From positions 1-64,000 of the forward strand of contig LNFI01000030.1 of assembly GCA_001464615.1 (NCBI GenBank): a stretch of 64,000 nt of DNA. The letters are read 5' to 3'. The notes under the pieces are model-generated. The model was not told the origin of the DNA. It saw only the letters and a list, made by a program, of their open reading frames with translations, and did not search any database. The translations under genes were made by a program, and so were the position numbers. Of this stretch, positions 42,946 to 44,106 are shown in pieces. Numbering within the stretch: position 1 is the first letter of the stretch; every line of letters starts with the position of its first letter. Source of the stretch: Sphingomonadales bacterium Ga0077557 (GTDB taxonomy: Bacteria; Pseudomonadota; Alphaproteobacteria; Sphingomonadales; Sphingomonadaceae).

Positions 42946-44106
42946 ATGACGATCGCGCTCTGGTTTCTGCTTGCCGTCCTGGCCAATTTCGCAGGCTATG
43001 CCCTGTACCTGACGGGGCTGAAGCGCGAACTTGTCCAGCCCAATCGCGCGTCCTGGCTGATTTGGAGCGCGGCGATTCTGGTGGAGGCGAGCACCTATGC
43101 CGCCGTTAATCCCGGCGCGGCGCAGAGCATCGTCTTTCTGGTATCGGCGGCGGCCTGTATCATCGTCACGATCGGCATTTGGCAGCGTTCGGCATGGAGC
43201 GCGCCGACCCGCAGCGAAACGATTTGCATGGCCGCTTGCCTCGCCTCACTGCTGCTGTGGGCGATGTTCAGTTCGGCCTTCTGGGCGCATATGCTGGTGG
43301 TGGCGGCCGTGCCGATCAGCTTCTGGCCGACCTGGGAAAGCGTGCAGCAAGACCGGGCACGCGAGCGATCACCGGCTTGGGGGCTGTGGACGGTGGGTGA
43401 TCTGGCCACGCTGATTGTGGCGACCCGCTCCGGCAATGTCGAAGTCGGCAGCTATGCCTATATCTTGGTCGAATTGCTCTGCCATGCCAGCGTGTGGTTC
43501 ATGATCGGCCTGGCCACGATCAACCCGATCCGCTCGCTCGGTTTCCGCAACGGGCGCTTTTATGTGCTCGATAAATATCGCCCCGCCGCCAATTTGTTCT
43601 CGGTGGGGGAGACGCATTTGGGCAAGGCGGTGTTTGCCGCCACCAATTTTGCTGAAGGCGAACAGATTGTGAAATTCACTGGTCGGCGGTTCCGCGCAGA
43701 CCAGGTGCCCAGCCTGATGCGCGGCGTCAGCGATCGCTTCGTCCAGGTCACGCCTGATCATTATATGGGACCATCGGGGCGGATCGATGATCTGATCAAC
43801 CATAGCTGCTCGCCCAATGCCGGGCTGCGCTTTACCGACGATGGCGTCTATCTTGTCGCCATTCAGCCGATCGCGCCGGGCGATGAGATCAGCTGGGATT
43901 ATTCGACCACGCTCACCCAGAGCAACTGGCACATGATCTGCCAGTGCCGCAGCGACGATTGCCGTCGGGTCATCGGCAATTTCGAAACGCTGACGCCCGA
44001 ACGGCAGGAATGGTTCCGCGCGCGTAATCTGGTCGCGCCCTATCTGCGGCGGCGCGATGATGTGCCGCCGGTGGCACCGCCGGTGGTGAGGGTAAAACAG
44101 GGCTGA
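42946..44106 (+). CDS. Polytopic membrane protein with C-terminal SET and post-SET domain
   Basis: ~6-7 TM segments then GKAVFAATNFAEGE, DDLINHSCSPNAGL, APGDEISWDYS, CQCRSDDCRRVIGNF. Confidence 0.9.
   Translation: MTIALWFLLAVLANFAGYALYLTGLKRELVQPNRASWLIWSAAILVEASTYAAVNPGAAQSIVFLVSAAACIIVTIGIWQRSAWSAPTRSETICMAACLASLLLWAMFSSAFWAHMLVVAAVPISFWPTWESVQQDRARERSPAWGLWTVGDLATLIVATRSGNVEVGSYAYILVELLCHASVWFMIGLATINPIRSLGFRNGRFYVLDKYRPAANLFSVGETHLGKAVFAATNFAEGEQIVKFTGRRFRADQVPSLMRGVSDRFVQVTPDHYMGPSGRIDDLINHSCSPNAGLRFTDDGVYLVAIQPIAPGDEISWDYSTTLTQSNWHMICQCRSDDCRRVIGNFETLTPERQEWFRARNLVAPYLRRRDDVPPVAPPVVRVKQG

Follow-up and report, generated by a model that had tools for sequence, protein, structure and literature searches.

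Discussion of bacterial SET proteins centres on effectors that are secreted to act on host chromatin and on soluble orphan enzymes. SET lysine methyltransferases (PF00856) such as MLL/KMT2, SETD8 and NSD, and in bacteria for example Chlamydia NUE, share one fold and the motifs NHSCxPN, DY and CxCx4C; transmembrane forms are unmentioned in a review of the bacterial SET proteins (PMC3980110). One bacterial SET protein, the methionine S-methyltransferase BurB (PDB 9l4t, 9l4v), has 172 aa, lacks a membrane part and works in DMSP synthesis: its substrate is free methionine, and the variants Y124F and S88A retain >60% activity (PMC12542666). Among membrane proteins, the PQ-loop/SWEET/KDEL-receptor superfamily is built on a 3+1+3 seven-helix fold with an internal duplication. 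In signalling, the Pseudomonas IsmP-ImcA module for c-di-GMP brings a CHASE4 sensor together with GGDEF/EAL enzymes in the membrane (PMC10904736).

Here we describe a gene from a window of 64,000 nucleotides (the whole stretch of DNA that was analysed) of the Sphingomonadales bacterium Ga0077557, whose product, 7TM-SET, combines features of these systems. It has the fold and motifs of the SET lysine methyltransferases and, judging by these, SAM chemistry would likewise be expected, but it differs from them in being covalently joined to a seven-helix membrane domain. BurB is close to it in fold and profile, yet 7TM-SET is membrane-embedded and encoded beside signalling genes. The membrane domain shares the fold, the duplication and PQ-loop profile similarity with the PQ-loop superfamily; in contrast to its members, it is unmatched by the Pfam models and is fused to an enzyme. 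Unlike in IsmP-ImcA, a methyltransferase gene accompanies the CHASE4/c-di-GMP module here. CheR-type adaptation methyltransferases of chemosensory and Wsp pathways also attach a methyltransferase to a membrane signalling pathway, but this is an analogy only, CheR being a Rossmann-fold glutamate methyltransferase and 7TM-SET a SET fold in the membrane. Each on its own, the SET type of enzyme and the fold of the membrane part are known; their combination is undescribed in the open-access literature searched. We found no description there of any Sphingomonas SET enzyme with a membrane part or of a link between SET and c-di-GMP, a search in which subscription papers could be missed. The features of the locus are collected in the table.

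Table. Features of the 7TM-SET locus (window positions; residues numbered along 7TM-SET)
Feature	Position	Strand	Basis or remark
7TM-SET fusion gene, 386 aa from ATG	42946..44106	+	ORF; Pfam SET; fusion shared by 80 full-length relatives
7TM domain, aa 1-197	42946..43536	+	AF2 helices; Foldseek; PQ-loop profile matches in both halves
7TM motifs			P32-N33..S36-W37; F126-W-P128..S132..P143-W145..W148
SET domain, aa 226-319	43621..43902	+	PF00856; source-genome search; Foldseek
SET residues			G226..V229; F244-T-G246; N285-HSC-PN291; W317-DYSTT
Putative post-SET zinc motif C332-x-C334-x4-C339-R, aa 332-343	43939..43974	+	Conservation in 46 homologues
Duplicated-domain protein, 375 aa	44153..45280	-	Between the 7TM-SET and kinase genes in this lineage
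CHASE4-HAMP-HATPase sensor histidine kinase, 620 aa	45637..47499	-	Pfam; convergent with 7TM-SET
REC-GGDEF-EAL response regulator, 638 aa	47499..49415	-	Pfam, sequence; conserved with the kinase

The SET identity, which the original prediction had read from motifs, was borne out by sequence and structure comparisons. In a Pfam scan of the 386-aa protein, PF00856 matched aa 226-319 with 47.9 bits (E 2e-12), more than twice the curated cut-off of 22.4 bits, and a search of the source genome returned this SET domain as its only one. When the PDB was searched by sequence, the SET and post-SET stretch matched MLL1, ASH1L, NSD and BurB, and a profile from 46 sequences raised this match to E 1.4e-13, with BurB at E 5e-11. 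An AlphaFold model of the full-length protein, built from 46 sequences, showed an all-beta domain after seven TM helices with a pLDDT of about 85-97, and Foldseek matched the modelled SET region to the SET domains of MLL1/MLL3, SETD8, NSD and BurB in the PDB. Neither PHROGs nor NCBIfam returned a name for either domain, and the N-terminal half is also unnamed by Pfam. The post-SET cysteine motif was likewise intact as predicted: C332, C334 and C339 (CxCx4C), together with C288, which lies within NHSC at the position of the putative fourth zinc ligand, were invariant in 46 aligned homologues except one with masked bases. This one locus (L124) is the only one without CxCx4C, and masked sequence is the cause. 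The C-terminal pseudoknot of a SET methyltransferase and a zinc bound at C288/C332/C334/C339 are putative here; the four residues are conserved and the domain is modelled at high pLDDT. As motifs of a SET methyltransferase we took GxxxFA, NHSCxPN and E-I-xx-DY; the SAM-binding/catalytic motifs NHxCxPN and EIxxDYST were invariant in alignment A4 and kept in a second, distant TM-SET subfamily within Sphingomonadaceae (about 25-28% identical). As far as its sequence tells, the 386-aa protein has a complete SET domain and a post-SET motif of the Zn type.

The substrate of such a domain is less easily read. Among the lysine-channel positions, Y319 is kept and the others are F244, W317 and R264 or F265, in a loop where the profile alignment is weak; as the channel Tyr of MLL1 aligns with Arg264 or Phe265 there, a lysine substrate is not assured. 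Nor do the conserved SET residues settle lysine specificity, because BurB, a close structural neighbour and among the best structural matches of the SET domain, methylates free methionine. SET enzymes can therefore S-methylate free Met (PMC12542666), and as Tyr124 and Ser88 of BurB are non-catalytic, intact SET motifs alone are no proof of lysine methylation. This points to an alternative in which a BurB-like SET domain methylates a free metabolite (a thioether such as methionine, for example, or an amine) that is transported or bound by the SWEET-like domain, and the nearby sensor does no more than react to the same physiological state. Against it, MLL-type protein methyltransferases scored above BurB in the profile search, and the gene neighbourhood described below also bears on it.

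The joining of the two domains was examined by using the TM part alone as query against named genomes, SET being left out. This returned 102 relatives, of which 80 were kept, nearly all titled Sphingomonas or Sphingomonadaceae, and at 80/80 kept loci SET followed the TM part in the same uninterrupted frame. Comparison with seven homologues gave dN/dS values of 0.02-0.28 across the TM part, linker, SET domain and tail. As the frame is single at every kept locus and dN/dS is low in every segment, the fusion is real, conserved and under purifying selection. Separate translation products of the TM and SET regions, which had been considered from the outset, are thereby ruled out, be they two genes or a frameshift artefact; the protein is one product. 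As a side observation, L117, a record titled Arthrobacter sp. TPD3018, has a Sphingomonas-type 7TM-SET locus, and its label is probably wrong.

The membrane part had been predicted to cross the membrane with about 6-7 segments; its polytopic nature stands, and the AlphaFold model settles the count at seven helices (aa 2-26, 34-54, 59-81, 89-107, 111-135 (kinked), 144-162 and 167-192). A TM-only AF2 model, of moderate confidence (pLDDT 73, pTM 0.64), found the KDEL receptor as its best Foldseek match (probability 1.00, TM-score 0.62), with a eukaryotic SWEET lower in the list and weaker; all matches of this model lay above E 0.001. A profile of the TM family aligned with bacterial SemiSWEET-type PQ-loop proteins once in each half, with scores of 28.6 and 27.1, compared with a median of 10.5 in 200 column shuffles, all but one of which scored <18; we take the single outlier (1/200, score 133.7) as a program artefact. 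The two halves also matched each other (profile score 30.0 versus a shuffle maximum of 19.4), indicating an internal duplication. Searched by sequence with the same TM profile, the PDB gave chance matches only. As the Pfam PQ-loop, MtN3_slv and ER_lumen_recept models did not match the TM part even at E<1, the likeness to the superfamily is one by fold, outside its Pfam families. In these models, the TM part is a 3+1+3 fold of the PQ-loop/SWEET/KDELR type, like a superfamily member by fold, and a PQ-loop likeness that had begun as a guess is now backed by fold and profile comparison. The same likeness counts for a small-molecule substrate, since the PQ-loop proteins of the SWEET family transport solutes (PMC3281891). 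In the homologue alignment, K+R in the loops amounted to 3.1, 2.7, 3.2 and 3.3 on the SET side and to 0.07, 0.7 and 1.0 on the opposite side. As the positive charges sit in the SET-side loops, the positive-inside rule predicts an N-terminus outside, a C-terminus inside and a SET domain facing the cytoplasm, which is where SAM is. A host-directed secreted effector is unlikely, given a seven-helix inner-membrane protein with a predicted cytoplasmic SET domain.

Profile searches of class and phylum samples revealed many stand-alone proteins of ~200 aa that have the same TM motifs without SET. By these motifs, the TM part is a member of an unnamed family whose other members mostly stand alone at ~200 aa. 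The solo proteins (~195-200 aa, PQ-loop/SWEET type; loci L031-L056 and L060-L075, e.g. L197:5297-5905) carry the motifs TKPHxFSWxxWG and FYPTFRKSYxxPxEE and are widespread in Pseudomonadota. Solo members tested had no above-threshold Pfam match, and scans of one member against NCBIfam and PHROGs likewise gave none. Their genes are generally not near GGDEF or SET genes, with L197 as the sole exception: at L197:5297-7176 a solo 7TM gene and a GGDEF gene converge, separated by about 24 bp, a layout that resembles the SET-fusion arrangement and is absent at the other solo loci. In SET trees, both TM-SET subfamilies grouped against solo soluble SET proteins (support 98/99). The TM tree placed the solo protein L027 beside subfamily 2, and a single clade of fusions was unrejected (p-AU 0.35). 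One fusion event for both subfamilies would be the simplest reading of these trees, not a proven one. L027, a TM-only protein of Sphingomonadaceae, may have lost SET or be an unfused ancestor.

The genes beside 7TM-SET encode a CHASE4 kinase with the phospho-acceptor motif VMHNVRNALNPI and a REC-GGDEF-EAL protein with intact GGDEF and EAL motifs, whose gene lies on the strand of the kinase gene and shares one base with it. At 59/80 loci, the 7TM-SET gene lies tail-to-tail with this two-gene unit within 10 kb, often with a gap of 0-150 bp or an overlap of a few bases, and the convergent order of 7TM-SET and kinase recurs in three genera. The 21 further loci divide into 5 that run off the contig within 4 kb and 16 whose genomes all have the kinase elsewhere. 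The 375-aa protein encoded in between, with an internal tandem duplication and a sub-threshold DUF7371 as its sole Pfam match, is present at 4/80 loci, and its gene is probably outside the unit. No other window neighbour was conserved beside 7TM-SET at comparable frequency across the 80 loci. In subfamily 2, the neighbour, here in divergent orientation, is a single CHASE4-GGDEF-EAL gene at 3/3 loci with flanking sequence (Pfam was run on two of these; the third shares 94% identity with one of the two). As the source genome has one CHASE4 and 11 GGDEF domains, it is very unlikely that chance placed CHASE4/GGDEF-EAL next to both subfamilies.

Because this pairing is conserved, we favour a signalling partner over the generic membrane or membrane-proximal substrate of the original prediction. 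A general lysine methyltransferase with many envelope substrates, paired with the sensor genes by history, would be compatible with an intact SET domain, membrane anchoring and the separation of gene and kinase in 16 genomes; as those 16 still have the kinase and a partner of this type recurs in the distant subfamily, we regard it as highly improbable. The neighbourhood also weighs against methylation of a free metabolite, as both subfamilies have signalling rather than metabolic genes as their conserved neighbours, and no other gene of the window is kept beside 7TM-SET at a similar frequency; we consider that alternative unlikely.

We also compared the occurrence of both genes across whole genomes. 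Among 301 family genomes, the 7 with a group-1 7TM-SET were exactly those with the kinase at at least 45% identity. In a further same-genus test, the kinase was present in 3/3 SET-positive and in 2/4 newly sampled SET-negative genomes. These two, G1114 (L213) and G1087, overturn the strict all-or-none co-occurrence seen in the 301 genomes and leave a one-way rule: the group-1 7TM-SET gene was never without the kinase (26/26 whole genomes tested). As both have the kinase and lack the SET gene, the SET protein is not essential to the kinase. Being of the same genus, G1114 and G1087 offer natural comparison strains in which the module is present and the methyltransferase is not. No lysine in kinase or regulator discriminated by tracking 7TM-SET presence; two SET-less homologues of the kinase deviate at K72 and K340, whereas a third does not.

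Overall, we consider it somewhat probable that 7TM-SET is a membrane-embedded SET methyltransferase serving as a modifying accessory of the CHASE4/c-di-GMP module, which suggests that protein methylation tunes a c-di-GMP signalling pathway. In this model, 7TM-SET would be an integral-membrane, SAM-dependent methyltransferase whose seven-helix bundle holds SET and post-SET on the cytoplasmic face. The CHASE4 histidine kinase would sense an envelope signal and pass phosphate to the REC-GGDEF-EAL enzyme, which would set c-di-GMP. 7TM-SET would then most likely methylate a lysine on the kinase, the regulator or a further member of their membrane complex, adjusting the output of the modified partner, and the 7TM part may serve either as anchor and dock for the enzyme or as a sensor that gates it in response to a small ligand. 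That 7TM-SET is catalytically active, that its substrate is a lysine or a protein, and which substrate this would be, is what we infer here. A multi-protein membrane module is plausible, as in Pseudomonas contact with a CHASE4 protein in the membrane regulates a diguanylate cyclase (PMC10904736). Against the model, 7TM-SET is convergent with its partners and shares no operon with them, and in a minority of genomes it no longer lies beside them. Contact of this kind and the genetic linkage to the sensor/c-di-GMP module would also fit a 7TM receptor whose SET domain is a non-catalytic scaffold, binding SAM/SAH as a metabolic signal and regulating the module by contact. However, the catalytic-site positions N285, H286, D318 and Y319 are invariant in 46 diverse homologues and likewise in the distant subfamily, which exceeds the needs of a binding scaffold and makes this distinctly improbable. 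The most specific version of the accessory model, a KDELR/SWEET-like receptor whose cytoplasmic SET methylates lysine on the CHASE4 kinase or the c-di-GMP enzyme, we put forward only tentatively.

A native, conserved, membrane-embedded SET protein in free-living bacteria that is genetically tied to c-di-GMP signalling offers a concrete test of intrabacterial SET methylation. The locus also makes a KDELR/SWEET-type fold testable as a bacterial signalling receptor and flags an unnamed 7TM family that is widespread in Pseudomonadota. If the receptor model is true, lysine methylation would be an adaptation mark on second-messenger signalling, a CheR-like role played by an unrelated enzyme fold.
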